A stretch of 64,000 nt of DNA from an uncultured Bacteroidales bacterium (GTDB lineage: Bacteria; Bacteroidota; Bacteroidia; Bacteroidales; Bacteroidaceae): assembly GCA_902779845.1 (NCBI GenBank), contig CACZCZ010000006.1, positions 32,887-96,886 on the forward strand. The letters run 5' to 3'. This document shows, one piece after another, positions 45,685 to 64,000 of this stretch; position 1 is the stretch's first letter; each line of letters opens with the position of its first letter. The notes below the pieces were generated by a model. It had not been told where the DNA came from. It searched no databases and saw nothing but the letters and a program-made list of their open reading frames with translations. Made by a program: the position numbers and the translations under genes.

Positions 45685-48600
45685 TTAATCGCAGCCTTCT
45701 TCACTCTTCATCCCCTGCATTTCCTCGAGCACGTCGCAGGCGTCTTTGACGCTGCTTACGCCTCGGATGAGCATGGAGCGGCGCCCTTTGACCTCGTCAA
45801 GCTGACAGTCGGCAGCATGGAGGGAGTAGTAGGAGATGCACTGTCCGAAGGCAGGGGACTGGAAGAAGGGGGAGTCGTCGTCCTTGACGAAGTAGAGGCG
45901 CAAGCGCCCGTTCTTCAGCATCACACGCTCCGCACCGAAGTACTTGCCCAAGCGGCGCAGCTTGACGACACGGATGAGTTCCTCGCCCTCCTCGGGGATG
46001 GGCCCGAAGCGGTCGATGAGACGTTTGCGGAAGGCCTCCACGGCCTCGTCGCTCTCAAGACCGTCCAGCTCGCGGTAGAGGAGCATCCGCTCGGTGCTGC
46101 CCGGCACATAGGAGTCGGGGAAGGACATGAGCATATCGCTCTCCAGCTGACACTCGTCCACGAAGGCTTCGCCGCTGGTGAGTTCGCCGGAGGCCACCTG
46201 CTGGGCGTAGAGTTCCTTGAACTCATCGTTCTTCAGTTCCTTGACAGCCTCCGAGAGAATCTTCTGATAGGTCTCATAACCCAGATCAGCGATGAAGCCG
46301 CTCTGCTCGGCGCCCAACAGATTACCTGCACCGCGGATATCCAAGTCCTGCATGGCGATGTGTATGCCGCTGCCGAGGTCAGAGAAGTTCTCAATGGCCT
46401 GCAGGCGACGGCGCGACTCCGTGGGCAGTGCCCCCAGGGGCGGTGCCAGCAGGTAGCAGAAGGCCTTCTTGTTCGAGCGCCCCACCCTGCCGCGCATCTG
46501 ATGAAGGTCGGCGAGGCCGAAGTTATGGGCACCGCAGATGATGATGGTGTTGGCATTGGGGATGTCGAGACCGCTCTCGATGATGGTGGTGGAGATGAGG
46601 ACGTCGTAGTCGTAAGCCGCGAAGGCCATCATCACGTTCTCCAGCTCTTCGGGGTGCATCTGGCCGTGGCCCACCGCCACGCGCGCATCGGGAACATATT
46701 TATGTACCAGTTCCTCCAGCTCAGGGAGGCCGCTGATGCGGTTGTTGACGATGAACACCTGTCCGTTGCGACTCATCTCGAAGCCGATGGCCTCGGCGAT
46801 GACCTCAGGCGAGAAGGTGTGCACCTCGGTCTGGATGGGATAGCGGTTGGGGGGCGGTGTCTGGATGACGCTGAGGTCACGGGCGCCCATCAGCGAGAAC
46901 TGCAGGGTGCGGGGGATGGGCGTGGCAGTGAGCGTGAGGGTATCTACGTTGACCTTCATCTGGCGCAGCCGCTCCTTGGTGGCGACACCGAACTTCTGCT
47001 CCTCATCGATGATGAGCAGGCCGAGGTCCTTGAACTTCACGCTTTTACCTATGAGCTTATGTGTTCCTACGAGGATATCTATCTTGCCCGCCTCGAGGTC
47101 GGCAAGGATCTCCTTGGTCTGCTTGGACGTTCGGGCACGGGTGAGGTAATCGACGCGCACGGGCAGGTCCTTGAGACGCTCGGAGAAGGTGTGGTAGTGC
47201 TGGTAGGCCAGCACCGTCGTAGGCACCATCACAGCCACCTGTTTGCCATCGACGGCGGCCTTGAAGGCGGCGCGCACCGCCACCTCCGTCTTGCCGAAGC
47301 CCACATCACCGCAGACGAGACGGTCCATGGGGCGCGAGCGTTCCATATCCGCCTTCACGTCGTTGGTGGCCTTGAGCTGGTCGGGGGTGTCCTCATAGAG
47401 GAAGCTGGCCTCCAACTCGTGCTGCAGGTAGGTATCGGGGCTGAACTTAAAACCTTTCTCCTCGCGGCGACGGCTGTAGAGCTGTATGAGGTCGCGGGCG
47501 ATGTCCTTGATCTTGGCTTTCGTGCGCTCCTTCATGCGCTCCCAGGCCCCTGTGCCGAGACGACTGATGTGGGGCGGTTCACCCTCTTTGCCCTTATACT
47601 TCGACACCTTATGCAAGGCGTGGATGGAGACATAGACAACATCGTCGTGGTCGTAGGTGATCTTGATCATCTCAATACCCTCTTCCCGCTCCCCCGTAAG
47701 GGAGAGAGCCTCACTTCGTTCGTGAGCTGCGCGCAGCCTCTCCCCGCCCTTACGGGAGGGGTCGGGGGTGGGTCTGTTCGCGGGCACGCGAACGAGGCCA
47801 CCGAAGCGACCGATACCGTGATCTACATGGACGACGTAGTCGCCAATCTCGAACTCCTGCAGTTCCTTCAACGACAGCGCCACCTTGCCACCGCGGGCGC
47901 GGTCACTGCGCAGGTTGTACTTATGGAAGCGGTCGAAAATCTGATGGTCGGTGAACACGCACACCTTCAGGTCGTTATCGGCAAAGCCTGCATGGAGGGT
48001 CTTGGAGACAGGGGTAAAGGAAATATTCGAGTTCGCAAAGATTTCCTTTAAACGGTCATTCTGCTTCTGGGAGTCCGCTAATATATATATGGTGTAGCCC
48101 TGTGCCAGGTAGTCCTCAAAAGACTGCGTGACCAGGTCGAAGTTCTTGTGGAAGAGAGGTTGGGGGGAGATGGAGAAAGAGAGAAGACCCACCCCAGCAG
48201 ACTCTCCCCCCGCCCTCCCTATCAGGGAGGGAGCAGAATGTGCTTGAGCAGAAGACATTTCAATACGGCGGAACAATGAAAAACCCTTCTCAAAGGTTTG
48301 AGCATCAATCAACAGGAGTTCTTTATTGAAAGCGCTGGCTGCAGAAGTGACTACTCCCTCCCTCATAGGGAGGGCGGGGGGAGAGTCCGGGCTGTCTGAA
48401 ATGTTTCGGCTTATTTCTGCTTGTTTTGAAAATCCTTCCTCCCAGATCTGACCGATGCGCTCGGCGACAAAGGTGATGTCCTTCGTGATGACGAGGGTGT
48501 TCTCGGGAAGAAGAGTGGCGAGGGGCACACGCTCCTCGCATTCCTCGCTGAGGTCCGGCACCAGGGAGATCATCTCCTGCTGACCGCGAGAGAGCTGACT

Positions 48601-49317
48601 CTCCACCTCGAAGGTACGGATGCTATCCACTTCGTTGCCGAAGAAATCAATGCGGTAAGGGTACTCAGAACTGAAGGAGAAGACATCTACCAGGGAGCCG
48701 CGCACGGCAAACTGTCCGGGCTCATAGACGTAGTCGGTTCGCTGGAAGCCGAAGGCCAACAGCGTCTGCTCCACAAACGAGAGATCCACCTGTTCGCCCA
48801 CGCGCAGCTGCAGCGTCCTGTCATCCAACGTTTTCTTGGACACCACACGCTCCGCAATGGCTTCGGGGTAGGTGACAATAAAAAGACCCACCCCCGACCC
48901 CTCCCGTAATGGAGGGGTGACTGCTGGCGCGCAGCTCTCGAACGCAGTGAGGCTCTCCCCCTCACGGGGGAGCGGGGAGAGGGTCCTTGCAATCACTTCC
49001 GTCCTCAGGATCTCATTCGCAGCATCGCGCTGTCCGTACTTCACGGCCCGACGATATGAGGAAGGGAAGAACAGCACCTGCTGCTCGCCGAGGATCTGCA
49101 CAAGGTCGTGGTAGAAATAGCCGGCCTCCTCCATGTCATCGAGAATGAAGAGGAGGGGACGTCCCATGTCAGGCAACGACGCAAAGGCCAGCGCCGCAGA
49201 GCTTGCTTGCAAGCCCGCCACGCTCACCGTGTGCTTCTTCTCGTTAGCGAGGGCCTTTGCCAGTGCTTTCACCTTGGGGTGACGCGCATACAAAGCCTGC
49301 AAATCCTTTATCTCCAC
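45685..49317 (-). CDS. mfd: Transcription-repair coupling factor Mfd
   Basis: A 1210-residue DNA translocase that removes stalled RNA polymerase and recruits UvrA for nucleotide-excision repair. The order is a UvrB-like N-terminal module, an RNA-polymerase-interacting CarD-like domain (YVVHVDHGIGRFGGL, about 490-600), a RecG-like helicase with Walker A GDVGFGKTE (~662), DEEQ (~772), TATPIPRTLQ and QMRGRVGRS motifs, and a C-terminal TRCF domain. The start is a GTG (MEIKDLQ). Four palindrome insertions are translated in frame: residues ~111-145, 310-322, 361-373 and 514-545, giving peptides such as SPPALPMREG and APSLIGRAGGES. All lie before the helicase core, and one is in a loop of the polymerase-binding domain. 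The gene is otherwise intact, so the insertions appear tolerated. Confidence 0.95.
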   Translation of the reverse strand: MEIKDLQALYARHPKVKALAKALANEKKHTVSVAGLQASSAALAFASLPDMGRPLLFILDDMEEAGYFYHDLVQILGEQQVLFFPSSYRRAVKYGQRDAANEILRTEVIARTLSPLPREGESLTAFESCAPAVTPPLREGSGVGLFIVTYPEAIAERVVSKKTLDDRTLQLRVGEQVDLSFVEQTLLAFGFQRTDYVYEPGQFAVRGSLVDVFSFSSEYPYRIDFFGNEVDSIRTFEVESQLSRGQQEMISLVPDLSEECEERVPLATLLPENTLVITKDITFVAERIGQIWEEGFSKQAEISRNISDSPDSPPALPMREGVVTSAASAFNKELLLIDAQTFEKGFSLFRRIEMSSAQAHSAPSLIGRAGGESAGVGLLSFSISPQPLFHKNFDLVTQSFEDYLAQGYTIYILADSQKQNDRLKEIFANSNISFTPVSKTLHAGFADNDLKVCVFTDHQIFDRFHKYNLRSDRARGGKVALSLKELQEFEIGDYVVHVDHGIGRFGGLVRVPANRPTPDPSRKGGERLRAAHERSEALSLTGEREEGIEMIKITYDHDDVVYVSIHALHKVSKYKGKEGEPPHISRLGTGAWERMKERTKAKIKDIARDLIQLYSRRREEKGFKFSPDTYLQHELEASFLYEDTPDQLKATNDVKADMERSRPMDRLVCGDVGFGKTEVAVRAAFKAAVDGKQVAVMVPTTVLAYQHYHTFSERLKDLPVRVDYLTRARTSKQTKEILADLEAGKIDILVGTHKLIGKSVKFKDLGLLIIDEEQKFGVATKERLRQMKVNVDTLTLTATPIPRTLQFSLMGARDLSVIQTPPPNRYPIQTEVHTFSPEVIAEAIGFEMSRNGQVFIVNNRISGLPELEELVHKYVPDARVAVGHGQMHPEELENVMMAFAAYDYDVLISTTIIESGLDIPNANTIIICGAHNFGLADLHQMRGRVGRSNKKAFCYLLAPPLGALPTESRRRLQAIENFSDLGSGIHIAMQDLDIRGAGNLLGAEQSGFIADLGYETYQKILSEAVKELKNDEFKELYAQQVASGELTSGEAFVDECQLESDMLMSFPDSYVPGSTERMLLYRELDGLESDEAVEAFRKRLIDRFGPIPEEGEELIRVVKLRRLGKYFGAERVMLKNGRLRLYFVKDDDSPFFQSPAFGQCISYYSLHAADCQLDEVKGRRSMLIRGVSSVKDACDVLEEMQGMKSEEGCD
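47685..47775. repeat. Palindromic element a (composite) inside mfd
   Basis: Two hairpins (CTCCC...GGGAG at ~47689 and a CCCTTACGGG core at ~47747) are joined by TCACTTCGTTCGTGA and GCTGCGCGCAGC mini-palindromes. The right end is the family tail in reverse orientation (GGGGGTGGGTC). It is translated in frame in mfd. The GCTGCGCGCAGC plus hairpin part is shared with the copy in pyrC. Confidence 0.8.
48200..48233. repeat. Palindromic element b inside mfd (forward)
   Basis: Tail GACTCTCCCCCCG followed by the hairpin CCCTCCCTATCAGGGAGGG. On the coding (-) strand it is read as APSLIGRAGGES. An extra half-tail (ACCCACCCCAGCA) lies just left of it, as in the copy at 59680. Confidence 0.9.
48354..48387. 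repeat. Palindromic element c inside mfd (reverse)
   Basis: Same element as b in the opposite orientation, 120 bp away. On the coding strand it is read in a different frame as DSPPALPMREG. With b it forms an inverted pair. Confidence 0.9.
48885..48986. repeat. Palindromic element d (composite) inside mfd
   Basis: The tail GACCCACCCCCGA plus hairpin CCCCTCCCGTAATGGAGGGG is followed by a GCGCGCAGC segment and a second hairpin at 48953-48986 (CTCCCCCTCACGGGGGAG). It is a mirror-image arrangement of element a and encodes TPPLREGSGVG in Mfd. Confidence 0.85.
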
Positions 49318-49340
49318 GGATGATGCTCTTGTTTACGATG

Positions 49341-49348
49341 CAAAGGTA
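49341..49348 (-). promoter_or_regulatory. Bacteroidales -7 promoter motif for mfd
   Basis: TACCTTTG on the - strand fits the Bacteroidetes -7 consensus TAnnTTTG, about 24 bp upstream of the GTG start. A clear -33 element was not found; an octamer array (CGATTTGA) occupies that position. Confidence 0.55.
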
Positions 49349-49443
49349 GCGATAATTTTACGATTTGACGATTTGACGATTTACTTTTTTATCATTTTCG
49401 GCTCATTTTTACCTTTTCTTTTTCCATTTCAAATTTATTGTTG

Positions 49444-49451
49444 TACATTTG
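49444..49451 (+). promoter_or_regulatory. Bacteroidales -7 promoter motif for sdaA
   Basis: TACATTTG fits the TAnnTTTG -7 consensus, 37 bp upstream of the sdaA start and divergent from the mfd promoter. Confidence 0.6.
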
Positions 49452-49487
49452 CAGCCAATAAACCATTGAACCATCCTTACTCTCCCT

Positions 49488-50681
49488 ATGAAATCCCTGC
49501 GTGAACTCTACCGCATCGGCATCGGTCCCTCATCATCGCACACGATGGGGCCACAGACTGCTGCGCAGCTCTATCTGCAGCGCCACCCTGAAGCGCGCGG
49601 CTTCGAAGTCACACTCTACGGAAGCCTTGCCGCTACGGGCAAAGGGCACATGACCGACGTGGCCATAGCAGATGTGCTGCAGCCTGCGGCACCCACACGC
49701 ATCCTATGGGAGCCGCAGACCTTCCTGCCGTTCCACCCTAACGGCATGAAATACGTCTGTCTCGATGAGGCAGGGAAGCCCTATGATCCATGGACGGTCT
49801 ATAGCGTAGGCGGCGGGGCGCTCTCTGAGGGTGAGGGCAGTGTGCAGGGGGGGCCTGAGCTCTACGACCTCAACACAATGGAGGAAATCATCCATTGGTG
49901 CCAGGATAGCGGGCGTGCATTTTGGGAGTATGTCGAGCAGTGTGAAGGGCCTGAGATATGGGATTACCTGCATGAGGTGTGGACGGTGATGTGCGAAGCC
50001 GTGGAACGCGGCATTGACCACGAGGGGGTGCTGCCCGGGCCGTTGGGGCTGCAGCGCAAGGCCCCTGTCTATTACACCAAGGCCAAGGGCTACAAGGCCA
50101 ACCTGCAGAGCGACGGCCTCGTATATGCCTACGCGCTGGCCGTCAGCGAAGAGAATGCCTCCGGCGGGCGCATCGTGACAGCGCCGACCTGCGGTTCCAG
50201 CGGTGTGATACCCGCTGTGCTCTATCATCTGTCGCACAACCACACCTTCTCGGAACAACGCATCCTACATGCTTTAGCCACCGCCGGACTCATCGGCAAT
50301 CTCGTAAAGCACAACGCCAGCATCTCCGGGGCCGACGTAGGTTGCCAGGGTGAGGTCGGCGTAGCTTGCGCCATGGCTTCGGCGGCGGCCTGCCAACTCT
50401 TCGGCGGCTCTGTGGCACAAATTGAATATGCCGCAGAGATGGGTCTGGAGCACCATCTGGGCATGACCTGCGACCCCGTGTGCGGCCTGGTGCAGATACC
50501 CTGCATCGAACGCAATGCCTTCGCCGCCGCCCGAGCTCTGGACACCAACTTCTATGCCTCGATGTCCGACGGCCAGCACCGCGTCAGCTTCGACCGCATC
50601 GTGCGCGTCATGAAGCAAACCGGGCACGACTTGCCCTCGCTCTACAAAGAGACTTCTGAAGGCGGACTGGCGAAGATTTAA
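49488..50681 (+). CDS. sdaA: L-serine ammonia-lyase (iron-sulfur type)
   Basis: A 397-residue single-chain L-serine dehydratase converting serine to pyruvate and ammonia. The N-terminal beta-domain motif [10 protein letters not shown] is at residues 13-22. The alpha-domain contains [27 protein letters not shown] and [18 protein letters not shown], which provide the cysteines for the labile [4Fe-4S] cluster. Length and order match the bacterial iron-sulfur serine dehydratases. It has its own divergent promoter opposite mfd and is followed by a heptamer spacer and a glycosyltransferase gene. Nothing is odd in the coding sequence. Confidence 0.95.
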
Positions 50682-50741
50682 AAAGTGAAAAGGGAAAAGG
50701 GAAAAGTAAAAAGTGAAAAATGAAAAATGAAAAGTGATAGT
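50682..50741. repeat. Heptamer array between sdaA and the glycosyltransferase gene
   Basis: The whole spacer is eight 7-bp units: AAAAGTG, AAAAGGG, AAAAGGG, AAAAGTA, AAAAGTG, AAAAATG, AAAAATG, AAAAGTG. Several ATGs in it are array units, so the annotated start of the next gene should not be taken from within it. Confidence 0.85.
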
Positions 50742-51491
50742 ATGGACAGCATTGTCATTATCCCCACCTATAACGAAAAGGAGAATATCGAGAACATCAT
50801 CCGCGCCGTCACCGGACTGAAGGAACACGCTTTCAACGTGCTCGTCATCGATGACGGATCACCCGACGGCACCGCAGACATCGTGAAGCGCCTGATGGCT
50901 GACGAGTTTCAGGACCGTCTGTTCCTCGTTGAACGTTCCGGGAAACTGGGCCTCGGCACCGCGTACATCGCCGGCTTCAAATGGGCGTTGGCACACGGCT
51001 ATGAATACATCTTCGAGATGGATGCCGACTTCAGCCATGCACCGTCCGACCTGCCGCGACTGCTGGCCGCCTGCAAGGATGAGGGTTATGACGTGAGTAT
51101 CGGTTCGCGCTATGTCACAGGTGTCAACGTGGTGAACTGGCCAATGGGACGTGTGCTGATGAGCTATTTCGCCTCGAAATATGTGCGCATTGTCACGGGC
51201 CTTGATATCCACGACACCACGGCGGGTTTCGTATGCTACCGTCGCAAGGTGTTGGAGACCATAGACTTGGATGCCGTACGCTTCAAGGGCTATGCGTTCC
51301 AGATAGAGATGAAATACACAGCAAAGCAGTTTGGCTTCAAGATTAAGGAGGTGCCCGTCATCTTCGTCAACCGCGAGCTGGGCACCAGCAAGATGTCCGG
51401 CGGCATCTTCTCCGAAGCGCTCTGGGGAGTCATGCGCCTGCGCTTGGACGGATGGCTTAAGAAATACAAGAAAGCCACCCCATCGTCATAA
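50742..51491 (+). CDS. Family 2 glycosyltransferase, polyprenol/dolichol-phosphate mannosyltransferase-like
   Basis: A 249-residue GT2 enzyme. Motifs are SIVIIPTYNEKENI at the N-terminus, the nucleotide-sugar loop DDGSPDGT, the DxD-type metal site EMDADFSHAPSD and the acceptor-side segment TAGFVCYRRKVLE. This is the DPM1-like subgroup that loads a sugar onto a polyprenyl phosphate at the cytoplasmic membrane. No transmembrane helices follow the catalytic domain, so it is the short soluble form. The start is placed at MDSIVII (50742); the ATG at 50727 lies in a heptamer array. The sugar cannot be determined from sequence. Confidence 0.9.
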   Translation: MDSIVIIPTYNEKENIENIIRAVTGLKEHAFNVLVIDDGSPDGTADIVKRLMADEFQDRLFLVERSGKLGLGTAYIAGFKWALAHGYEYIFEMDADFSHAPSDLPRLLAACKDEGYDVSIGSRYVTGVNVVNWPMGRVLMSYFASKYVRIVTGLDIHDTTAGFVCYRRKVLETIDLDAVRFKGYAFQIEMKYTAKQFGFKIKEVPVIFVNRELGTSKMSGGIFSEALWGVMRLRLDGWLKKYKKATPSS

Positions 51492-51525
51492 CGTCATTAC
51501 GTTATAACGTTATAACGAAGAAAAG
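51484..51525. repeat. Octamer array after the glycosyltransferase gene
   Basis: Units CATAACGT, CATTACGT, TATAACGT and TATAACGA run from the last codons into the spacer before pyrC. They resemble the arrays at 3407 and 45557. Confidence 0.75.
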
Positions 51526-51530
51526 ACTCC

Positions 51531-52889
51531 ATGGAAAAGAAGGTTTTCAATGATGTCCTTTATGTGTCCGACGGCCGCATCCGCCGGGCTGATATTGTGG
51601 TAGAGGGTGAATACATCGCCCAAATCACCAACAAGGAAGAAATCCCTCAGCCCTCAGCCCTCAGCCCTCAGCCCTCACTTCTTCTCCCCGGCATCATTGA
51701 TGATCACGTTCACACCCGGGAACCGGGGATGACGCATAAAGGTGACCTCACGACAGAGAGCCATGCGGCAGCGGCGGGTGGCGTGACCACCATCATGGAT
51801 ATGCCGAACGTAGTGCCACAGACCACGACGCTGGAGACCTTGGCAGAACGTCAGCAGATGGGTGCCGCACACGCCTTCGTAAACTACAGTTTCTACTTCG
51901 GTGCTACGAACAGCAACGCCCACCTCCTACCCCACCTCGACCCCACCACGGTGCCGGCCGTGAAACTGTTCATGGGCAGCAGCACGGGCGGGATGTTGGT
52001 GGACCACGGCGACGCCCTACGCGCCGTCTTCGAACAGTCACCCCTGCTCATCATGACCCACTGCGAGGACTCCGCTATCATCGCGGAAAACATGCGGAAG
52101 GCGCAGGCGCTGTACGGCGATGACCCCGATGTCATCCACCACCCCGAAATACGCAGCCGCGAAGCCTGTATTGCCTCGTCGCAGCTGGCTATCAGGCTGG
52201 CGAAGGAGACCGGAGCGAGACTGCATATTGCACACGTAACCACAAAGGAGGAGCTAAAGACCCTTGAGAGCTGCGCGCAGCCACTCCCCGCCCTTACGGG
52301 AGGGGTTGGGGGTGGGTCTGTCTCTTTCGAGGTTTGTGTCCCGCACCTCCTCTTCACCGACGAAGACTATAAGACACTGGGGACACGCATCAAATGCAAC
52401 CCCGCCGTGAAGACACGGGAGGACCGCGAGGCTCTGCGAGCGGCGCTGAACGATGGCCGCATCATGGTGATTGGCACCGACCATGCGCCGCACCTGCTCT
52501 CGGAGAAGGAAGGGGGTTGCAAGCGTGCCGTATCGGGGATGCCCATGGTGCAGTTCTCGCTGCCCGCCATGCTGGGGCTGGTGGAAGAGGGCGTGCTGCC
52601 CATCACACGTATGGTGGAACTGATGTGCCACAACCCCGCACGCCTGTTCCACATCGCAGAGCGCGGCTTCATCCGCGAAGGCATGAAAGCAGACCTCACA
52701 CTGGTACGCCGCCAACCCTGGACACTCACCCAAGACCTCATCGTCAGCCGCTGCGGCTGGAGTCCCCTTGAAGGCCACACGTTCCCTTGGCGGGTGGAGC
52801 AGACCTACTGCAACGGCCGCCTCATCTATGATAAAGGTGTCTTTGCCAACGGAAACAGCCATGTGCAAGCCCTCCACTTTACACTATAA
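51531..52889 (+). CDS. pyrC: Dihydroorotase
   Basis: A 452-residue amidohydrolase that cyclises carbamoyl-aspartate to dihydroorotate in pyrimidine synthesis. Metal-site motifs are DDHVHTREPG (HxH), the loop THKGDLTTESHAAAAGGVTTIMDMPN, later histidines in IMTHCED and LHIAHVTT, and the late aspartate in GTDHAPHLLSEK. Two inserts are unusual. Near residue 40 a CCCTCAG heptamer array encodes QPSALSPQPSLLLP. At about 245-264 a palindromic element encodes SCAQPLPALTGGVGGGS between the strand ending TTKEEL and the strand beginning FEVCVPH. Both fall in apparent loops, and the enzyme is likely active. The 3' end overlaps the next gene by 29 bp. Confidence 0.93.
   Translation: MEKKVFNDVLYVSDGRIRRADIVVEGEYIAQITNKEEIPQPSALSPQPSLLLPGIIDDHVHTREPGMTHKGDLTTESHAAAAGGVTTIMDMPNVVPQTTTLETLAERQQMGAAHAFVNYSFYFGATNSNAHLLPHLDPTTVPAVKLFMGSSTGGMLVDHGDALRAVFEQSPLLIMTHCEDSAIIAENMRKAQALYGDDPDVIHHPEIRSREACIASSQLAIRLAKETGARLHIAHVTTKEELKTLESCAQPLPALTGGVGGGSVSFEVCVPHLLFTDEDYKTLGTRIKCNPAVKTREDREALRAALNDGRIMVIGTDHAPHLLSEKEGGCKRAVSGMPMVQFSLPAMLGLVEEGVLPITRMVELMCHNPARLFHIAERGFIREGMKADLTLVRRQPWTLTQDLIVSRCGWSPLEGHTFPWRVEQTYCNGRLIYDKGVFANGNSHVQALHFTL
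51644..51678 (+). repeat. Five-unit CCCTCAG heptamer array inside pyrC
   Basis: Four CCCTCAG units and one CCCTCAC in tandem near the 5' end of pyrC. Seven is not a multiple of three, so gain or loss of one unit would shift the frame of the gene. Confidence 0.9.
52263..52320. repeat. Palindromic element e inside pyrC (reverse)
   Basis: GAGAGCTGCGCGCAGCC is followed by a hairpin around CCGCCCTTACGGG and the reverse tail TTGGGGGTGGGTC. This is the same subfamily as the right half of element a in mfd. Confidence 0.88.
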
Positions 52890-53784: not shown

Positions 53785-53798
53785 GGGAAATCCCCATC

Positions 53799-56056: not shown

Positions 56057-56066
56057 ACGCCCCACG

Positions 56067-56432
56067 ATGAAACAGCTCACCCCTCTCCAACTCCTCCTGC
56101 AGCAAGGCGCCGCCGTGCTGATGCTCGCCGGTGCCGCCGTCTTCCTGCTGTTCCCGCTGTGGGGAACGGTGCTGTTCACACTGGGCGCTGTGGTCTTCGT
56201 GCCGCTGCAGATGCTGCAACGCTACGAGGGTCAGAGTTTCATCATCCGGCGTCTGCGCCGCCAGCAGCTACTGGGCGGCGTCGCCTTCCTCTGCACCGCC
56301 TGCTGCATGATCATGCAGGTGGGAGACTTCGGCTTCGCCCGTCGCAATGAGTGGGTGGTGTGCCTCACGGTGGCCTGCATCCTGCAGCTCTACACCGCAT
56401 TCCGTATTCCCGCAGAACTCAAGAAAGAATGA
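56067..56432 (+). CDS. Small multi-pass membrane protein
   Basis: A 121-residue protein with about four hydrophobic segments in two pairs (GAAVLMLAGAAVFLLFPLWG plus TVLFTLGAVVFVPLQ, and LLGGVAFLCTACCMIMQV plus WVVCLTVACILQLYTAF) separated by a basic loop RRLRRQQ. Start at MKQLTPLQLLL (56067), 10 bp after the preceding stop. Its 3' end overlaps the acyltransferase start by 4 bp (ATGA). I do not recognise a characterised family. The context (division protein upstream, phospholipid acyltransferase downstream) suggests an envelope role. Confidence 0.82.
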   Translation: MKQLTPLQLLLQQGAAVLMLAGAAVFLLFPLWGTVLFTLGAVVFVPLQMLQRYEGQSFIIRRLRRQQLLGGVAFLCTACCMIMQVGDFGFARRNEWVVCLTVACILQLYTAFRIPAELKKE

Positions 56433-57214: not shown

Positions 57215-57219
57215 ACATT

Positions 57220-57924
57220 ATGAAACGAACGTTATACGCTTTCTCCCTCTTCTGTGCGCTGGTGCTGACCGGCTGCAAGAATCAACTGGACATCCAAGGC
57301 GAGACCTCCCTGCCGGAGCTGGAAGGCCGCACCCTCTACCTTCGCGTCTATGAGAACGGCGACCTGCAGGCCATCGATTCCGCCAGCATCACCCACGGCA
57401 AGTTCCACTTCACCGGCAACGCCACCGATTCCACCGTCATGGCCTTTCTCTTCCTTGAAGAGCAGAGCCTGATGCCCGTCGTGATCGATGAGAACCCACT
57501 GACCATCACGCTGAACGAGAATGAGCACAAGGTCGTGGGCTCTGCACTGAATGATACGCTGCGCGCCTTCATCCAGCGCAAGACAGAACTGGACATGCAG
57601 CTCGCCGAGCTGCCGCGTCGTGAAAGTCGCATGATTTTAGAGGGCTATGACCACCACGAGATCCTCATGCAGCTCAATCAGGAGGCTGCAGCCTTGACGG
57701 CACAGGAGGACGAGCTGGTGACGCGTTTCATCAAGGACAACATGGATAATGCGCTGGCTCCCGGTGTCTTCATGATTGTCACCTCGGGCCTCCCCTACCC
57801 GATGCTCAACCCGCAAATCGAAGAGCTGGAGGCACTCGGCTCACCGCGCTTCCTGAATGACGCCTACGTCAAGGATTTCCTGAAGATGGCGCACGACAAT
57901 ATGGAGAAGCTGAAAGATCAGTAA
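57220..57924 (+). CDS. DUF4369-type lipoprotein
   Basis: A 234-residue predicted lipoprotein with signal peptide MKRTLYAFSLFCALVLTGC (cysteine 19). The N-terminal half (YLRVYENGDLQAIDSASITHGKFHFTGN) matches the DUF4369 beta-sandwich domain that often precedes thioredoxin-like domains in Bacteroidetes. Here the thioredoxin part is missing; the C-terminal half is helical and charged (ALTAQEDELVTRFIKDNMDN). It lies 5 bp after plsC and is probably in the same operon. It converges with the rluA-like gene with a 5-bp gap. Function unknown. Confidence 0.8.
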   Translation: MKRTLYAFSLFCALVLTGCKNQLDIQGETSLPELEGRTLYLRVYENGDLQAIDSASITHGKFHFTGNATDSTVMAFLFLEEQSLMPVVIDENPLTITLNENEHKVVGSALNDTLRAFIQRKTELDMQLAELPRRESRMILEGYDHHEILMQLNQEAAALTAQEDELVTRFIKDNMDNALAPGVFMIVTSGLPYPMLNPQIEELEALGSPRFLNDAYVKDFLKMAHDNMEKLKDQ

Positions 57925-57929
57925 GCGCC

Positions 57930-59750
57930 TCAGAACGGTGCCGGCGCCTCGAAGTGCATCCTTTCGTGCGTCACGGGATGCGTGAAGTCAAGCGCTTCGG
58001 CATGTAAGTACAAGCGGTCTGCGACATGGCCGTAGAGTCTGTCGCCCACAATCGGAGCATTCAGCCCTTCCTTAGCTGCCGCATGAACCCTTAGCTGATG
58101 GGTGCGACCTGTCTGCGGATAGAACCTCACGCGCGTACCTTTTTCTTCCTGTCCGATGACCTCGTACAGTGTCACCGCCTCCTTGCCATGCTCCCAATCC
58201 ACCCGCTGTCGCGGCATATCCTCCAGATTTGGCGCGAGGGGCAAAGATAAAGACCCACCCCCAACCCCTCCCGTTAGGGAGGGGAGCCTGCACTCTAATA
58301 TCGCTACGTACTGCTTCTTTATTTCCCTGCGTTCAAACTGCTGGCTGAGGGCTCGGTGGACGTAGGCGCTCTTAGCAATGACCATGATTCCCGAGGTGTC
58401 CTGATCCAGACGGTGTACGATGACGCTGCCCTCGATGGCTGGCCACAGGCGAAGTGCCTCGTCGAAGAGGTTCGCCTGGTCGCTCTTGCCCGGAATGCTG
58501 CACCAGCCCTCGGGTTTCTCGATGACGGCCAGGTGCTCATCCTCCCACACCACTCGCACAGGCTTCAGCGTCTGCTCGTAATGCAGCGCCGGGTCGGGTT
58601 CCACGTTCAGCCCTTGCAACATGTAAGTCAGAATGGGACGGCATTTGCTGTGACAGGCAGGGAAGAAAGCCCCAGGCTCCTTGTAATGTCCAGGGGTAGA
58701 TGGTCCCCACCAGAACTCGGCCATCGCCAACGGCTGCAAGCCCAGCTTGTAGGCTGTCTGTAGCAGTTTCGGCGCACAGCACTCACCGGCACCGGATGGA
58801 ATCAAAGACCCACCCCCCGCCCTCCCTTGTAGGGAGGGAGTTTTTACGTTTGAAGGAATAACACGAAGAGAATCATTATTAAAAATCTCTATTAATCTCT
58901 TTCTCTCCCCTCTCGCATTCAAAAACTCAAATTGATCGAAGAGCCATTGTTGGAGGGCTTCGCTGCGTTGTTTGCGCTCTGCGTACAACTGTCGATGTCT
59001 GAAGTGATAATTGGCCATCAGGCCTTCGGCTTGCGCAATCTCGCCCGCATGGAGATGCTTCGCACGTTGTATGTCCGCCTTCTGATGCTGACGCATTCGG
59101 ATGTAATCTGCGTTGCCACGCAGCGCATTGTTGCGCGACGCTTCGTACACGCGTTTGGCTTCATCTATGGCCTGCTGGCGCTCGCTTTTCATCAGTTCCA
59201 GCGCCGCCCTCGTTGCCCTCACCTCTTCGCTGTTTCTGAGCGTTTCCATCTCTTCGCTCAGTGCCATGATCTCAGCCTGTTCCTTCTGGAAATGGCTCTC
59301 CGGATCCAGATAATCCACCACGGGCGGTACAAACCACGGATGATTGTAGCTCCCTTTCAGCTGTCCGGAATAGGCGGCAAGAAAATAAATAGGCCCCTCT
59401 ATATCTCCCCCTAAGGGGAGACTTTCCAGTCCATCTACAGTCTCCGCGCTAAATTCACCGGAATTCTCTATTTCATTTTTTGTGTTTTGTATTCTGCAAA
59501 CCAGCACCCCATACATCTTCCCTTCTCTCACGCCCATCTCCCGCAGCTTATCCTGCACGATGAGCGCCGCCTTCCGGCACAGGGGATGTGGTGTGTAGCG
59601 AAAGGGGAAGGTAAATTGAGTGGGCATGGGTTCGCCCTGCCAGGAAAGGGGATGGAGATAGGAAGACCCTCCAACAGCAGACCCTCCCCCCTGCCCCTCC
59701 CTTGCAGGGAAGGGAGTAGAATCTATTTGAGAAATGGTTTTAATCTCCAT
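57930..59750 (-). CDS. RluA-family pseudouridine synthase with long N-terminal domain, carrying four palindromic inserts
   Basis: A 606-residue protein. The C-terminal ~220 residues are an RluA-type catalytic domain: VVWEDEHLAVIEKPEGWCSIPG, the catalytic HRLDQDTSGIMV, and RTHQLRVHAA. It would isomerise uridine in rRNA or tRNA; the target is unknown. The N-terminal ~380 residues, with a coiled coil at ~165-270, are typical of the long Bacteroidetes form. Four family palindromes are translated in frame: residues ~12-24 (PFPAREGQGGGS), ~111-116 (a short hairpin), ~304-315 (TPSLQGRAGGGS) and ~489-500 (LPSLTGGVGGGS). The last falls within the catalytic domain, between the strands ending VAILE and NLEDMPRQRV. 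The start at 59750 is uncertain, because the first codons belong to the flank of an element. Confidence 0.88.
   Translation of the reverse strand: MEIKTISQIDSTPFPAREGQGGGSAVGGSSYLHPLSWQGEPMPTQFTFPFRYTPHPLCRKAALIVQDKLREMGVREGKMYGVLVCRIQNTKNEIENSGEFSAETVDGLESLPLGGDIEGPIYFLAAYSGQLKGSYNHPWFVPPVVDYLDPESHFQKEQAEIMALSEEMETLRNSEEVRATRAALELMKSERQQAIDEAKRVYEASRNNALRGNADYIRMRQHQKADIQRAKHLHAGEIAQAEGLMANYHFRHRQLYAERKQRSEALQQWLFDQFEFLNARGERKRLIEIFNNDSLRVIPSNVKTPSLQGRAGGGSLIPSGAGECCAPKLLQTAYKLGLQPLAMAEFWWGPSTPGHYKEPGAFFPACHSKCRPILTYMLQGLNVEPDPALHYEQTLKPVRVVWEDEHLAVIEKPEGWCSIPGKSDQANLFDEALRLWPAIEGSVIVHRLDQDTSGIMVIAKSAYVHRALSQQFERREIKKQYVAILECRLPSLTGGVGGGSLSLPLAPNLEDMPRQRVDWEHGKEAVTLYEVIGQEEKGTRVRFYPQTGRTHQLRVHAAAKEGLNAPIVGDRLYGHVADRLYLHAEALDFTHPVTHERMHFEAPAPF
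58252..58286. repeat. Palindromic element f inside the rluA-like gene
   Basis: Tail GACCCACCCCCAA plus hairpin CCCCTCCCGTTAGGGAGGGG. On the coding strand it reads LPSLTGGVGGGS. Confidence 0.9.
58807..58840. repeat. Palindromic element g inside the rluA-like gene
   Basis: Tail GACCCACCCCCCG plus hairpin CCCTCCCTTGTAGGGAGGG. On the coding strand it reads PSLQGRAGGGS. Confidence 0.9.
59404..59421. repeat. Short palindrome h inside the rluA-like gene
   Basis: TCTCCCCCTAAGGGGAGA is a near-perfect hairpin resembling the family core, but the C-rich tail is not evident. It may be a degenerate or distinct member. Confidence 0.55.
59680..59716. repeat. Palindromic element i at the rluA-like 5' end (forward)
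   Basis: Tail GACCCTCCCCCCTG plus hairpin CCCCTCCCTTGCAGGGAAGGG. A half-tail GACCCTCCAACAGCA lies just left at 59665. Translated as PFPAREGQGGGS near the N-terminus. Its outer flank (CAAATAGATTCTACT on the coding strand) resembles the flank of the copy in ilvN. Confidence 0.88.
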
Positions 59751-59765
59751 TCTTGGTAGTAACTA

Positions 59766-59802
59766 CTCCCCTCCCTACAAGGGAGGGGCTGGGGGGAGGG
59801 TC
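59766..59802. repeat. Palindromic element j upstream of the rluA-like gene (reverse)
   Basis: Hairpin CCCCTCCCTACAAGGGAGGGG and reverse tail GGGGGGAGGGTC. Opposite in orientation to element i, 49 bp away; the pair brackets the rluA-like start codon. It is followed by a GTCTTGGAG tandem repeat and then the end of ilvC. Confidence 0.88.
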
Positions 59803-59844
59803 TTGGAGAGTCTTGGAGGGTCTGTTCTTTTAGGCCTTAATTCA

Positions 59845-60888
59845 TTAGTTGTTCTCCGGACGAAGCTGACGTACAACAGCTGCGGTACGCCACATCTCGC
59901 TATCGCGCAGGGCAGCGAGTTCCTTCTCAAGGCCTTCGCGGTAACCGGGTTTGCTGTTGCTGTCGATGGAGATCTGAGCCTCGTGACCAGCCTTCACGCT
60001 GGCGTAGAGCTTCTCGACCACGGGCTTGATGGCATCGTGGAACGGACCCATCCAGTCGAGGGCGCCACGCTGGGCGGTGGTGGAGCAGTTAGCGTACATC
60101 CAGTCCATACCCTTGGCAGCAAAGAGAGGCATCAGGCTCTGTGTGAGCTCTTCGACGGTCTCGTTGAAGGCCTCGGAGGGTGTGTGGCCGTTCTCGCGCA
60201 GCACCTCGTACTGAGCCAGGAGCAGACCCTGGATAGCACCCATCAGAGAGCCGCGTTCGCCGGTGAGGTCAGAGGTAGCTTCGCGCTGGAAGGTCGTCTC
60301 GAAGAGGTAGCCGCTGCCAATGCCGATACCGAAAGCCAGCACCTTCTCCAGTGCCTTGCCGCTGGCATCCTGGTAGATGGCATAGCTGCTGTTCAGGCCG
60401 CGACCTTCGAGGAACATGGTGCGGAGGCTGGTGCCGCTACCCTTGGGAGCCACCATGATGACATCGATGTCCTTGGGAGGAACCACACCTGTGCGGTCGT
60501 TCCAAGTGATGGCGAAGCCATGTGAGAAGTAGAGTGTCTTACCTGCCGTGAGATGGGGCTTGATGGTAGGCCAGAGCTGCATCTGAGCAGCGTCGGAGAG
60601 CAGCAGACATACGATGGTACCGCGCTCAGCAGCCTCCTCGAGGGAGAACAGCGTCTCACCGGGAACCCAGCCGTCAGCAACAGCCTTTTCATAGGTCTTG
60701 CCGGGACGCTGGCCTACGATGACGTTGAAACCGTTGTCGCGCAGGTTGCAGGCCTGTCCAGGGCCCTGCACGCCATAACCGAGCACAGCGATGGTCTCGT
60801 TCTTCAGCACCTCACGTGCCTTCTCAAGGGGAAACTCCTCGCGGGTCATGACTTCTTCAATGACACCGCCAAAATTCATTTTTGCCAT
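59845..60888 (-). CDS. ilvC: Ketol-acid reductoisomerase
   Basis: A 347-residue NADPH/Mg2+ enzyme of valine, leucine and isoleucine synthesis, converting acetolactate or acetohydroxybutyrate to the dihydroxy acid. The Rossmann loop is LGYGVQGPGQ, followed by NVIVGQRPGKTYEKA, the segment SHGFAITW, VIMVAPKGSG and metal-site segments DLTGERGSLMGAIQG and EAFNETVEELTQ. Length matches the long Bacteroidetes class I form. It is the last gene of the - strand ilv cluster, separated from the upstream genes by a lipoprotein gene. Start MAKMNFGG at 60888. Confidence 0.96.
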   Translation of the reverse strand: MAKMNFGGVIEEVMTREEFPLEKAREVLKNETIAVLGYGVQGPGQACNLRDNGFNVIVGQRPGKTYEKAVADGWVPGETLFSLEEAAERGTIVCLLLSDAAQMQLWPTIKPHLTAGKTLYFSHGFAITWNDRTGVVPPKDIDVIMVAPKGSGTSLRTMFLEGRGLNSSYAIYQDASGKALEKVLAFGIGIGSGYLFETTFQREATSDLTGERGSLMGAIQGLLLAQYEVLRENGHTPSEAFNETVEELTQSLMPLFAAKGMDWMYANCSTTAQRGALDWMGPFHDAIKPVVEKLYASVKAGHEAQISIDSNSKPGYREGLEKELAALRDSEMWRTAAVVRQLRPENN

Positions 60889-61069
60889 ATTGTTTTAGTT
60901 TAAAGAATTGGTCTTGGAAAGGGCTCTTTGGCCTCATTGGCCTCATTGGCTCTTTGCTGCGCAAAGATAAGCATTTTCTCTCAAAGCGCGGCACAACGCC
61001 GCCCTTTATTTACTATGAGCCCCGTCTTTTGTTGATATGAATCAGTTGCAGGGCTTAGCAAGCTTTCGC
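60889..61069. repeat. Spacer with 9-bp array between the lipoprotein gene and ilvC
   Basis: Around 60923-60956 the spacer contains GGCCTCATT twice, flanked by GGCTCTTTG-type variants (9-bp period, same family as AATGAGGCC and the RAYT linker array). The rest is A/T-rich upstream of ilvC; no clear promoter motif was identified. Confidence 0.6.
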
Positions 61070-62041
61070 TTAGTTCACCTTGTCAAAGTAAACAAAGACA
61101 CGACAGCTGAACGCCAGCGTCACAAAAGCACCCATTTGCGCCTTGATCTCCTCCACTTGCGGGATAACCGGCTCTATGCAGAGCTGGTCATTGCGGAAAG
61201 AGACACCGGCAGTGTTGTCCCCTTGATCGGGGAATGAGATGACGAAAGACTTCCCTGATTCTGTCCACCTCCAGCTCGCCACGACACATTCCTCGGGACG
61301 CTTCGTGATTGCTGTTCCCGTGGTGGTAAACTGGACTTGGTTAAAGAATAAGGGATTCGAGGTGAGGTCGCTAAAATCAGCCATCTCGTAGATGTCAACG
61401 GATTCGCGAATACTTTCGGGCAAATCATCTACGACGCTCTCAAGGAAGGGTATCAGGTCCTCCTGCAACTGCGGCAGTTCTTCAAGGGTGCACTCCCTAT
61501 TAAATTCATCTTTGAGGACTTTCAAATCTATACGCACGGTAGCCAGCTCCCACGCAGCACTCATCTGGGTTGTAGTAGCATCATAGGCAATCGATTTTTG
61601 CAGCGTTACGGGCAGTTCCACCGTCGCGCCATCAGTGGGAGTTGCGCTCAGCAGGAAACCATCGCCGGCCTCGTTGAACTTTACGATGACTGTTCCCCAA
61701 CCATTCAGCTGATACTCATTGCCTTCTTTCGCGGTAAATTTACCTTCTACTACGCGCACCACATCCTTGTCGGCACGTGTCTTGACACCGGAAGCAGCCT
61801 GACGCTCACCCACGATGTAGTTGCCGGTGGTGGGGACTATTTCCACGAAGTCAATCAAGCCACCCTCGCTGGTGACATTATATCGGGCAGCGGTGTTGGA
61901 AGACGGTATCACCAATGGTACAATGGGTTCCGGCCCTACAGGACCTGGTCCCGGGTCTGACTTCTCTTCATCCTTGCTGCAAGCAGCAAATACCAATACA
62001 GAAGCTGCAAAAAACGCAGCCAGCTTAGACAATGTTTTCAT
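61070..62041 (-). CDS. Predicted lipoprotein of unknown function in the ilv cluster
   Basis: A 323-residue protein with a lipoprotein signal (MKTLSKLAAFFAASVLVFAAC, cysteine 21), then an acidic and Pro/Gly-rich linker (SKDEEKSDPGPGPVGPEP). The body is predicted mainly beta, with a central helical stretch (LEELPQLQEDLIPFLESVVDDLPESI). No family was recognised. It lies 8 bp after the thioesterase gene, so it could be co-transcribed, but a surface lipoprotein has no evident role in branched-chain synthesis. I regard it as an insertion into a conserved operon. Confidence 0.75.
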   Translation of the reverse strand: MKTLSKLAAFFAASVLVFAACSKDEEKSDPGPGPVGPEPIVPLVIPSSNTAARYNVTSEGGLIDFVEIVPTTGNYIVGERQAASGVKTRADKDVVRVVEGKFTAKEGNEYQLNGWGTVIVKFNEAGDGFLLSATPTDGATVELPVTLQKSIAYDATTTQMSAAWELATVRIDLKVLKDEFNRECTLEELPQLQEDLIPFLESVVDDLPESIRESVDIYEMADFSDLTSNPLFFNQVQFTTTGTAITKRPEECVVASWRWTESGKSFVISFPDQGDNTAGVSFRNDQLCIEPVIPQVEEIKAQMGAFVTLAFSCRVFVYFDKVN

Positions 62042-62049
62042 TTTTTTCT

Positions 62050-62889
62050 TTAAGTATTTTTAAATTGGACTTTAGCCTGTACGACAACCTCTCCCGCCGG
62101 CTTCTCGGCTACGCCTACATGCTTACGGATCTCAACGTGTGTGGAGGCTGTGGCACACCCATCCTCTGGAACTTCTTCTGTAAAAAAGGTTAATATATCA
62201 CCAAGGTAAGATTCTGTTTTATAAGCTATATCGAAGCGATGGATAAAGTTATGCTCGAACTGTTCGCGAGGGAAAAGATCGAGGATATGCTCGATGTATT
62301 TCACGCTGTTGATGTGGCCGTTGATATCTACGTCAGAGTAGTAAGTAGGGATCGCACGGTAGGGTTCATTGGAGAAGCGAACGGTGCGGCCGAACTTGGC
62401 AATCGGGCACGGCTTCTCCTCGGCAGGGATGACATAGTTGAGGATGTCGCCGTCCTTGAGTTCCAAGAGGTTCGAGGGTTGGCGCGTCTCCACATCTATC
62501 ATCGCCCAGATGCTGCGGGCGTAGCCATAGATGCGGCCGTCGTCGGCATTGCGGATGAGGAAGTTACGCTCGGTGAAGAGCTTCATGACGCTCTCCACCC
62601 ATGTCTCCACCTCCACGTGCTCATACTGCGCCGGCATCTCCGTCAGCTCGATGCTCAGGCGCGACAGCACCCATGTGTAGTGCCGTTCGTTCAGCTGGTC
62701 AATGCCCCACCCGCGGTTGTGCGAGTGTCTTCCCGCCGCATTCAGCAGATGATTCCCCAGCACCCCCAAAAACAGATGCCCCGTAAAATCCACATGGAAG
62801 GGTTCCACGCTAAAACTATATGTGGAGACTCTCCCCCCGCCCTCCCTATAAGGGAGGGAGCTATTACTATCTGAGTTATTGATATGCAT
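62050..62889 (-). CDS. Acyl-ACP thioesterase
   Basis: A 279-residue double-hotdog thioesterase of the acyl-ACP thioesterase family. The first hotdog starts at YSFSVEPFHVDFTGHLFLG; the second contains the catalytic-type segment YYSDVDINGHINSVKYIEH (DxNxHxNxxxY). It hydrolyses acyl-ACP to free fatty acid. In Bacteroidales this gene commonly lies between ilvN and ilvC. The first ~22 residues (MHINNSDSNSSLPYREGGGRV) come from a palindromic element, so either the protein carries an unusual N-terminal extension or the true start is further in; no in-frame ATG lies between residue 1 and the conserved fold. Confidence 0.88.
   Translation of the reverse strand: MHINNSDSNSSLPYREGGGRVSTYSFSVEPFHVDFTGHLFLGVLGNHLLNAAGRHSHNRGWGIDQLNERHYTWVLSRLSIELTEMPAQYEHVEVETWVESVMKLFTERNFLIRNADDGRIYGYARSIWAMIDVETRQPSNLLELKDGDILNYVIPAEEKPCPIAKFGRTVRFSNEPYRAIPTYYSDVDINGHINSVKYIEHILDLFPREQFEHNFIHRFDIAYKTESYLGDILTFFTEEVPEDGCATASTHVEIRKHVGVAEKPAGEVVVQAKVQFKNT
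62827..62860. repeat. Palindromic element k at the thioesterase 5' end (forward)
   Basis: Tail GACTCTCCCCCCG plus hairpin CCCTCCCTATAAGGGAGGG. Identical in core to element m. On the thioesterase strand it is read in a third frame as SSLPYREGGGRV. Confidence 0.92.
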
Positions 62890-62915
62890 TGGAAAGTAAT
62901 ATTCTATTATGATGA

Positions 62916-63281
62916 TTATTGGAAATAATTTTCTATTTGCTGCAATACATTGTCCAAGTCATAGAGAACTTCTTCATTCGTGAAACGCATCACATGAAAG
63001 CCCATTTGTTCTAAGAACTGTTCACGCATAGCATCATTTTCCTGTTGCTGTCGCTCTGCATGGTAACCTCCATCGACTTCGATAATGAGTCCTTCGCGCT
63101 GAGATACGAAATCTACAATATAATCTCCAATGATAAATTGACGATTAAAACGCGTACCTACATCAAGTGTGCGCAACGCCTCCCAAAGGACCGACTCCGC
63201 CAGTGTTTGATTCTTTCTGTTTGCTCTGGCAAAATCCTTCAATATTTCATATCTGTCAGGGGACGACCAATGAAAATCCAT
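62916..63281 (-). CDS. DUF559 protein (Vsr-like PD-(D/E)XK nuclease fold)
   Basis: A 121-residue protein from the ATG at 63281 (MDFHWSSPDRYEIL). It matches the DUF559 family: ARANRKNQTLAESVLWEALR, FNRQFIIGDYIVDFVSQREGLIIEVDGGYH with the D...E-x-D catalytic-type layout, and a C-terminal GFHVMRFTNEEV. These are small Vsr-like endonuclease-fold proteins of unsettled role. It sits between ilvN and the thioesterase gene, where a conserved operon would not be expected to contain it. Inverted copies k and l of the palindromic element lie on either side. No sign of decay. Confidence 0.88.
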   Translation of the reverse strand: MDFHWSSPDRYEILKDFARANRKNQTLAESVLWEALRTLDVGTRFNRQFIIGDYIVDFVSQREGLIIEVDGGYHAERQQQENDAMREQFLEQMGFHVMRFTNEEVLYDLDNVLQQIENYFQ

Positions 63282-63326
63282 TTCCAATCAATAATAAAAA
63301 TGAATCCGATTCTTGAAAGGTGACCG

Positions 63327-63360
63327 CTCCCTCCCTTATAGGGAGGGCGGGGGGAGAGTC
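63327..63360. repeat. Palindromic element l at the ilvN 3' end (reverse)
   Basis: CTCCCTCCCTTATAGGGAGG and the reverse tail GGGGGGAGAGTC. On the ilvN strand it encodes the last residues KTLPPPSL, and the TAA in its hairpin loop (63336-63338) is the ilvN stop codon. Confidence 0.92.
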
Positions 63361-63956
63361 TTCTCCTTCTCCCTCTCCCTCTCCTCCAAATACTCATCCA
63401 GTTCCTCGCGTGTGCCTCTGGTGATACAGATGCGGCCGGAGCGGGCGAACTGATGGACGACATCGAGGCTGTTGAGGGCATTGAAGAGGGAGAGGATGTC
63501 CTCTGTCGTGCCCGTCTTCTCGACAGCCATGTAGGTGGGGTTCACCTCCACGATGCGGGCGCCGTGGTGCCGCACGATGCGGCACACCTCGGGGTTCTCC
63601 ATCGCGGCGGGCGTCGAGATTTTCAGCAGCGACGTCTCCTGCAGGAATATCTCGTCGTCGGTATAGAAGCGAGCCTGCAGCACATCGATGCGCTTCTCGA
63701 TCTGCGCCTTCAGCACCTTCACCATCTCTTCGGTGCAGTAGCACGTGATGGTGTATTTATGCACGCCAGGCGTGGAGCTGGCGCATACGTTCAGGCTCTC
63801 GATATTGATCTGTCGGCGCGTGAACACCGCCGTCACCTGGTTCAGAATACCGGCGAGGTTTTCGGAGAAGACCAAAATGGTATATAAAGACTCTCCCCCC
63901 GCCCTCCCTATAAGGGAGGGAGTGGAATGTATTTGACTACTTGGTATCTTATTCAT
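63336..63956 (-). CDS. ilvN: Acetolactate synthase small (regulatory) subunit, ends rewritten by palindromic elements
   Basis: A 206-residue subunit that activates acetolactate synthase and confers valine feedback. The N-terminal ACT domain is LYTILVFSENLAGILNQVTAVFTRRQINIESLNV, followed by the C-terminal domain ending FARSGRICITRGTREELDEYL. The first ~24 residues (MNKIPSSQIHSTPSLIGRAG...) and the last eight (KTLPPPSL) are translated palindromic elements; the element at the 3' end also supplies the stop. The frame stays open upstream of the ATG to the window edge (NIHFDEREAY), so the start is provisional. First ilv gene visible; the large subunit would be expected just upstream. Confidence 0.9.
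   Translation of the reverse strand: MNKIPSSQIHSTPSLIGRAGGESLYTILVFSENLAGILNQVTAVFTRRQINIESLNVCASSTPGVHKYTITCYCTEEMVKVLKAQIEKRIDVLQARFYTDDEIFLQETSLLKISTPAAMENPEVCRIVRHHGARIVEVNPTYMAVEKTGTTEDILSLFNALNSLDVVHQFARSGRICITRGTREELDEYLEEREREKEKTLPPPSL
63889..63922. repeat. Palindromic element m at the ilvN 5' end (forward)
   Basis: Tail GACTCTCCCCCCG plus hairpin CCCTCCCTATAAGGGAGGG. Read on the ilvN strand as TPSLIGRAGGES. The flank beyond the hairpin (TCAAATACATTCCACT on the coding strand) matches the flank of element i. Confidence 0.92.
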
Positions 63957-64000
63957 ATATGCTTCTCTTTCATCAAAATGAATATTCTTTGATATGTCCA

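Follow-up and report, generated by a model that had tools for sequence, protein, structure and literature searches.

Repetitive extragenic palindromes (REPs) and REPtrons, as described in PMC3733652 and PMC8266576, are 20- to 40-nucleotide (nt) repeats made of a tail and a hairpin, present in high copy number and as head-to-head dimers, with an enzyme gene lying between its own repeats. PMC3733652 also reports intragenic REP copies in repair and pseudouridine-synthase genes, and CGTC REPs, including the Rickettsia palindromic elements RPE-4 and RPE-6, which are described there as in-frame palindromes of functional genes without a dedicated transposase. As for DUF559, a gene with this domain is termed EDxHD in PMC9403480, and PMC12907096 places the domain in the Vsr-like protein VsrA. 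The homing endonuclease I-Bth0305I reportedly forms a dimer on its target, which spans nearly 60 bp (PMC3943268). Here we analyze 64,000 nt of an uncultured Bacteroidales bacterium (contig CACZCZ010000006.1; the window), in which palindromes with a tail-plus-hairpin layout lie in several housekeeping genes without disrupting them and two of the palindromes enclose a DUF559 nuclease gene. In our reading, to which we give a probability of about 0.66, the palindromes form the ends of small mobile elements, with this nuclease, of the Vsr/EDxHD homing-endonuclease fold, as their enzyme, and the copies without a gene would be non-autonomous.

A DUF559 gene between inverted palindromes

The 12 palindromes (positions 47,741 to 63,922; Table 1) vary slightly around one pattern, in which the tail GAC[CT]C[ACT]CCCCC lies on the outer side of the hairpin CCC(C)TCCC-loop-GGGAGGG(G). 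A first-pass annotation of the same DNA had recognized this layout in 13 copies; the copies proved real, but their number is 12. It had also reported none in the first 47 kb, and indeed no tail-plus-hairpin copy precedes position 47,741 of the window. Two more related hairpins, each the partner of one of the 12 copies, are 91% complementary to each other (58 nt). The genome-wide search that the annotation had proposed returned 139 strict copies in the 2.92-Mb assembly (47 contigs, 85.9% complete), divided 75 to 64 between the two strands, whereas a reversed-pattern control had no match in it; the palindromes thus exceed chance.

Two end types dominate the assembly. T-loop ends have GACTCT, GACCCT or GACCCA tails followed by CCCTCCCT, and G-loop ends have mostly GACCCA tails followed by CCCCTCCCG. 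A motif conserved on the inner side of the T-loop hairpins, GTAGTTACCTTTCAAG or AGAATGTATTTGAG, is similar to TAnnTTTG, the Bacteroidetes -7 promoter box. In the first 100 of the 139 places, 37 neighbour pairs lie less than 1.5 kb apart, of which 26 are convergent (tails outward), 4 divergent and 7 equally oriented; 24 of the 26 convergent pairs are spaced by 80 to 232 nt. The palindromes of this genome thus show the high copy number and mostly head-to-head dimers expected of REPs. Convergent pairs, such as that at 48,200-48,387, hold about 100 nt of host DNA, and some, judged by eye, surround apparent start codons or signal-peptide regions. Elsewhere in the genome (L030, C13, 5,120-5,282), four palindrome units 37 nt apart form a tandem array with the usual inner motif at its end; this array suggests that a tail-plus-hairpin can be added on its own.

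The 123-codon DUF559 gene, unmentioned by the first-pass annotation though it lies in the region covered, has inverted palindromes on either side, at 62,827 and 63,360. This full copy reads tail-hairpin, short spacer, nuclease gene, short spacer, inverted hairpin-tail, an enzyme gene within terminal inverted repeats as in transposons and miniature inverted-repeat transposable elements (MITEs). Over 36 nt, the 62,827 side is 100% complementary to 63326-63361. The protein has the Vsr/EDxHD nuclease fold, with 3hrl and I-Bth0305I as the nearest solved structures, and is related to I-Bth0305I and Vsr in both fold and sequence. PADLOC returned only weak matches, among them 'homing endonuclease' (8e-6), and identity as a defence gene was rejected.

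Inverted palindromes enclose each of the four DUF559 matches of this genome (scores 74, 72, 71 and 59). Those in C6 and C21 have T-loop ends, that in C7, a fragment, has G-loop ends, and that in C29 belongs to another palindrome family, which also occurs as the translated peptides LTPQPPLQGARGS and PLAPWRGGWG. The C29 gene (L017, G000:C29, about 65,409-65,723) has this other family at its flanks and scores 74; the adjoining asnS-like open reading frame (ORF) contains a similar-looking in-frame stretch, TTPPRPLERGTGGE.

The same arrangement was found in relatives. We confirmed 536 DUF559 relatives in named genome records and kept the best 80, 79 of them testable. All 79 scored above the 95th percentile of far-flank controls, and 45 above the highest control. 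With 350-nt flanks, flanking inverted repeats scored at least 36 in 76 of the 79, compared with 1 of 1,500 random segments. With 400-nt flanks, for which the random background is higher (20 of 1,500 reach 30 and 8 of 1,500 reach 36), a score of 30 was reached by 21 of 25 testable loci among 29 further ones of the genus, and by 17 of 24 testable loci in a phylum sample of 29, the other five being at contig ends; one of the sample (L245) scored 95. Eight plasmid loci from cyanobacteria, alphaproteobacteria and Deinococcus (of 38 matching records) were inspected by eye: five have hairpins on both sides and three on one, and in L247, L248 and L252 each element end is a whole palindrome dimer. A link to the CGTC/dRS3 repeats of Neisseria was discarded on the basis of a single DUF559 locus, which has an inverted repeat (score 36) but, by a simple pattern, no dRS3-like motif within 1 kb.

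The distance from gene to end is short and rather constant in relatives, with medians of 18 nt upstream and 28 nt downstream (73 loci); the spacers of the window element measure 39 and 55 nt. Bacteroidales elements occupy many places, the 146 outer flanks of 73 loci falling into 55 similarity clusters, several of them in up to seven genomes. At the ilvN end, the window, L040 and L062 have different nuclease and end types, as do L042 and L047 versus L053 and L064 at the stop of a second gene. Repeated arrival at the same site fits both places, and so does vertical descent with later replacement.

End type follows the nuclease clade, not the genome. Twelve loci from eight genomes, which we delimited by contig prefix, were informative. 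In 11 of these, the ends resembled those of the closest nuclease relative in another genome more than those of any mate in the same genome; L093 failed, L041 and L044 tied, and the nearest relative of L112 was its mate. L058 had no testable mate, and L097 had no end above threshold. Nuclease-protein distance correlated with end-sequence distance (74 loci; Mantel r 0.56, against a highest value of 0.23 in 2,000 permutations; kinship not corrected). Across 61 genomes, palindrome count was related to DUF559 count (rho 0.55, or 0.44 with genome size removed, again without correction for kinship) and weakly to Y1_Tnp count (0.25, or 0.15 with genome size removed).

Insertion in frame into host genes

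Four palindromes of the window lie in mfd and one in pyrC; two are internal to the rluA-like gene, one is at its N-terminus and one upstream of its start; one is at the thioesterase N-terminus, and ilvN has one at each end. The first-pass placements in mfd, pyrC and the thioesterase and ilvN ends agree with these, and the translated peptides were found as it had described them, in several frames and both orientations. It had put four copies inside the rluA-like gene, of which the fourth (59,767-59,802) precedes the start. The convergent partner of the 63,889 palindrome lies about 270 nt further on, outside the window (L022).

Table 1. Palindromes, nuclease gene and host genes in the window
Position	Strand	Feature	Remarks
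47741..47774	-	palindrome, GACCCA/G-loop type	in mfd (RPTPDPSRKGGE), inside CarD/RID domain match
47677..47734	-	partner hairpin of 47741 copy	spacer GAGCTGCGCGC; both together form a 98-nt dimer
48200..48233	+	palindrome, GACTCT/T-loop type	in mfd (APSLIGRAGGES)
48354..48387	-	palindrome, GACTCT/T-loop type	in mfd (DSPPALPMREG); forms a convergent pair with the 48200 copy across native Mfd sequence
48885..48918	+	palindrome, GACCCA/G-loop type	in mfd (TPPLREGSGVGL)
48927..48984	+	partner hairpin of 48885 copy	
52285..52318	-	palindrome	in pyrC (LPALTGGVGGGS)
58252..58285	+	palindrome	in rluA-like gene (LPSLTGGVGGGS)
58807..58840	+	palindrome	in rluA-like gene (TPSLQGRAGGGS)
59680..59715	+	palindrome	N-terminus of rluA-like gene
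59767..59802	-	convergent partner of 59680	upstream of rluA-like start
62827..62860	+	palindromic end downstream of DUF559 gene	read through in thioesterase N-terminus (SLPYREGGGRV)
62916..63287	-	DUF559 (Vsr/EDxHD-fold) nuclease gene	123 aa; inverted palindromic ends on both sides
63327..63360	-	palindromic end upstream of DUF559 gene	supplies ilvN C-terminus and stop (TLPPPSL-stop)
63889..63922	+	palindrome	ilvN N-terminus (PSLIGRAGGES)
45685..49317	-	mfd	host of four palindromes
51531..52889	+	pyrC-like gene	host; amidohydrolase, read as dihydroorotase
57930..59750	-	rluA-like pseudouridine synthase gene	host
62050..62889	-	acyl-ACP thioesterase gene	ORF as read now begins inside element
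63336..63956	-	ilvN	both ends from palindromes

The palindromes of mfd are insertions. This was established by aligning orthologues from the genus (30 Mfd sequences, own genome included), with occupancy read by eye for some of them. L123, L124 and L127 have no insert at two paired Mfd sites, L117 (own genome), L118, L119, L125 and L126 have inserts at both, with palindrome families that differ between genomes, and L122 has one at the first site only. The gains at the two paired sites of our genome are 33 and 39 nt. At a third site, L118 measures 105 nt versus 69 nt in empty orthologues, a gain of exactly 36 nt; the own-genome insert there lies within the CarD/RID domain, whose Pfam match takes 86 residues for 56/57 profile positions. 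The mfd gene of L118 also holds a CGTCATT-rich insert. For Mfd, the first-pass claim of mobile inserts tolerated in frame is borne out. It had named as its refutation the same peptides, hence ancestral ones, at the same positions in orthologues of distant Bacteroidales; this fails for Mfd because the inserts are absent from several congeneric orthologues (among them L123, L124 and L127), and other species hold other palindrome families there. For the reading of the peptides as ancestral protein sequence we found no supporting point; it is refuted at the Mfd sites, and we give it practically no chance.

The ilvN-thioesterase junction was compared by eye. In the congeners L193, L194 and L198, ilvN runs directly into the thioesterase gene where the window element sits, and the element gives ilvN a new tail and stop (KTLPPPSL-stop) and the thioesterase ORF a new start.

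The first-pass annotation had also called for a count inside and outside genes. Of 101 unique copies, long ORFs contain 41, with both strands and several frames represented, and the other 60 are not internal to one. Among 2,000 positions drawn at random from these loci, 1,206 (60%) fall inside long ORFs. Thus genes are hit often, though less than at random, and a preference for genes was rejected. A special openness of the palindromes to translation was likewise rejected, with a mean of 4.6 open frames (94 copies) versus 4.9 in shuffles; having four to six of the six frames open is unremarkable, since shuffling at constant composition leaves as many open.

The palindromes might instead be retained for an RNA function, as terminators or in mRNA stability or gene insulation, their spread being incidental. 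The 60 copies that are not internal to a long ORF and those that supply stop and start codons agree with this, but the 41 internal copies, with their varied strands and frames, and the Mfd orthologues without palindromes do not, and an Rfam scan of 47,000-64,000 found no known RNA family. We regard such a role as extremely improbable.

Whole DUF559 domains also occur inside continuous reading frames. The host proteins in other Bacteroidota are LeuRS (L219, L221, L243), MetH, where the domain separates the two B12-binding domains (L232, L237), HsdM (L229) and methylases of Type ISP or another type (L217, L218). A Pseudanabaena plasmid has a further case in a methylase gene (L252). Translated palindromes flank the domain on both sides in L243, L232, L237, L229 and L217; L219 and L221 have one on the right side only and failed the inverted-repeat test. 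The LeuRS, MetH and HsdM frames run straight through the insert, with no splicing element evident, though no intron or intein search was made.

A different short repeat, RHSSLVTRHSSLSFL, is read in frame at about 53,160-53,215 of the window, in the ORF at 52,768-53,784.

Candidate agents of spread

DUF559 genes are linked to the palindromes, and the nuclease probably spreads them. It would recognize the tail-hairpin and cut at or beside it, possibly with one dimer spanning a pair of inverted ends; repair of the break would copy ends or whole elements to a new site, or home them to a homologous one. The other window palindromes, single or in convergent pairs, would be non-autonomous copies spread in trans by the window nuclease or by a lost relative with a matching end type. 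A copy landing in a gene would be tolerated if open and in frame, and hence persist, either adding about 12 residues to the protein or supplying a new start or stop.

Several points weigh against this proposal. Cutting and movement by the nuclease are inferred. No target-site duplication was readable, the empty sites being too diverged for exact junctions. Most gene-less convergent pairs enclose unique host DNA, such as native Mfd sequence, so that a simple internal-deletion MITE does not account for them. The Mantel and genus correlations ignore phylogeny. Only a small number of genomes supplied the 12 within-genome comparisons, which are not independent of one another. In the genus set, which consists of incomplete metagenome-assembled genomes, 7 of 39 palindrome-bearing genomes have no DUF559 match, and 5 of 22 genomes without palindromes do have one. 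Finally, 7 of the 24 testable phylum loci score below 30, including two of the three LeuRS cases (L219, L221).

We also compared 33 interiors. Matches at E 0.01 or less were confined to some G-loop interiors (up to 45 nt) and two DUF559 interiors, and a simple MITE with a shared interior was not supported for the T-loop family.

It may be that another agent moves the palindromes and that DUF559 is a free-standing homing gene inserting into or between existing ones. Insertion sequences that target REPs, reported in PMC1525189, are a precedent for such a passenger. Besides the genomes with palindromes and no DUF559 match, the ilvN-thioesterase junction of G040 has a pair without a nuclease gene, its left hairpin decayed (L188), and in L189 and L195 one palindrome stands at this junction. 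However, the short, rather constant gene-to-end distances are unlike a random cut in a spacer of about 100 nt, and no other candidate enzyme was found, Y1_Tnp being the only other one searched for. The match of end type to nuclease clade within one genome also speaks for the nuclease as mobilizer, although a target-specific homing gene would give the same pattern. We consider the passenger explanation unlikely, though it is the most serious of the alternatives.

The first-pass annotation had called the palindromes REP-like and the tail-plus-hairpin layout the hallmark of REP elements. Classical REPs, with a REP-associated tyrosine transposase (RAYT, a Y1 transposase) as mobilizer, would account for the layout, the high copy number, the mostly convergent dimers and the copies in repair and pseudouridine-synthase genes, where PMC3733652 places REPs too. 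Yet the genome has a single Y1_Tnp match, which is weak (24.1 bits; 33.6 bits for NCBIfam REP_Tyr_transpos, with a cut-off of 80 bits) and has no flanking inverted repeats (score 20), and Y1_Tnp count barely tracks palindrome count (partial 0.15). The GTAG tag is missing from the outer ends of the palindromes of this genome, which are mostly [AC][AG]GAC[CT]C; a GTAG-like GAGTAG is present only on the inner side of the hairpin. A RAYT may be missing because the assembly is 85.9% complete. Classical REP membership is thus unsupported, as is RAYT as mobilizer, which we judge very unlikely. A 434-aa protein with a weak Y1_Tnp core (L016, 1,261-2,565) has internal short repeats (GARGDEG), a long C-terminal extension and no flanking palindromes.

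Comparison with known repeats and mobile elements

In the top-ranked papers of broad literature searches, which covered few subscription journals, we found no publication joining DUF559 or COG2852 to palindromic repeats. The PINSR repeat of Prevotella intermedia is, like the palindromes, a high-copy repeat of related bacteria, but according to PMC4755523 it is 188 bp long, intergenic and without terminal inverted repeats. MITEs with their autonomous transposons share terminal inverted repeats and gene-less copies with our elements; they differ in that here the terminal repeats have a hairpin each and most pair interiors are unique DNA; a target duplication was not readable. With I-Bth0305I and Vsr-like DUF559 proteins, the nuclease shares the fold and profile-level homology. 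Unlike EDxHD homing endonucleases, it comes with palindromic ends and continuous insert-bearing frames, in which no splicing element was evident (none was searched for).

Tentatively, and at slightly less than even odds, the comparison may extend further. DUF559 nucleases might drive a new, widespread class of splicing-free elements in Bacteroidota, Cyanobacteriota, Deinococcota and Alphaproteobacteria, which hairpin read-through would let enter essential genes (LeuRS, MetH) and whose gene-less copies would be many RAYT-less repeats, including short Gly/Pro-rich peptides of housekeeping proteins. Our main reading by itself accounts for the odd in-frame peptides of essential proteins by a selfish nuclease element that survives by translation instead of splicing, and DUF559, a domain of unknown function in Pfam, gains a likely role. 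Palindromic repeats with no assigned enzyme, such as CGTC REPs as presented in PMC3733652, are offered a testable one.

CGTC REPs, RPE-4 and RPE-6 resemble the palindromes in lying in frame inside functional genes (here mfd, the pyrC-like and rluA-like genes, ilvN and the thioesterase gene). Their terminal CGTC tag was absent from our palindromes, whose outer end reads AGTC or GGTC on the other strand, and here the repeats flank a nuclease gene. With REPs and REPtrons our elements share the tail-plus-hairpin, the high copy number, the head-to-head dimers, an enzyme gene flanked by its own repeats and some intragenic copies. The tag differs, GAC[CT]C[ACT]CCCCC instead of GTAG, and so does the enzyme, a PD-(D/E)XK-like DUF559 nuclease instead of an HUH tyrosine transposase (RAYT/TnpAREP). 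In-frame REPs are already known. The palindromes are best read as REP-like elements of a DUF559 nuclease.
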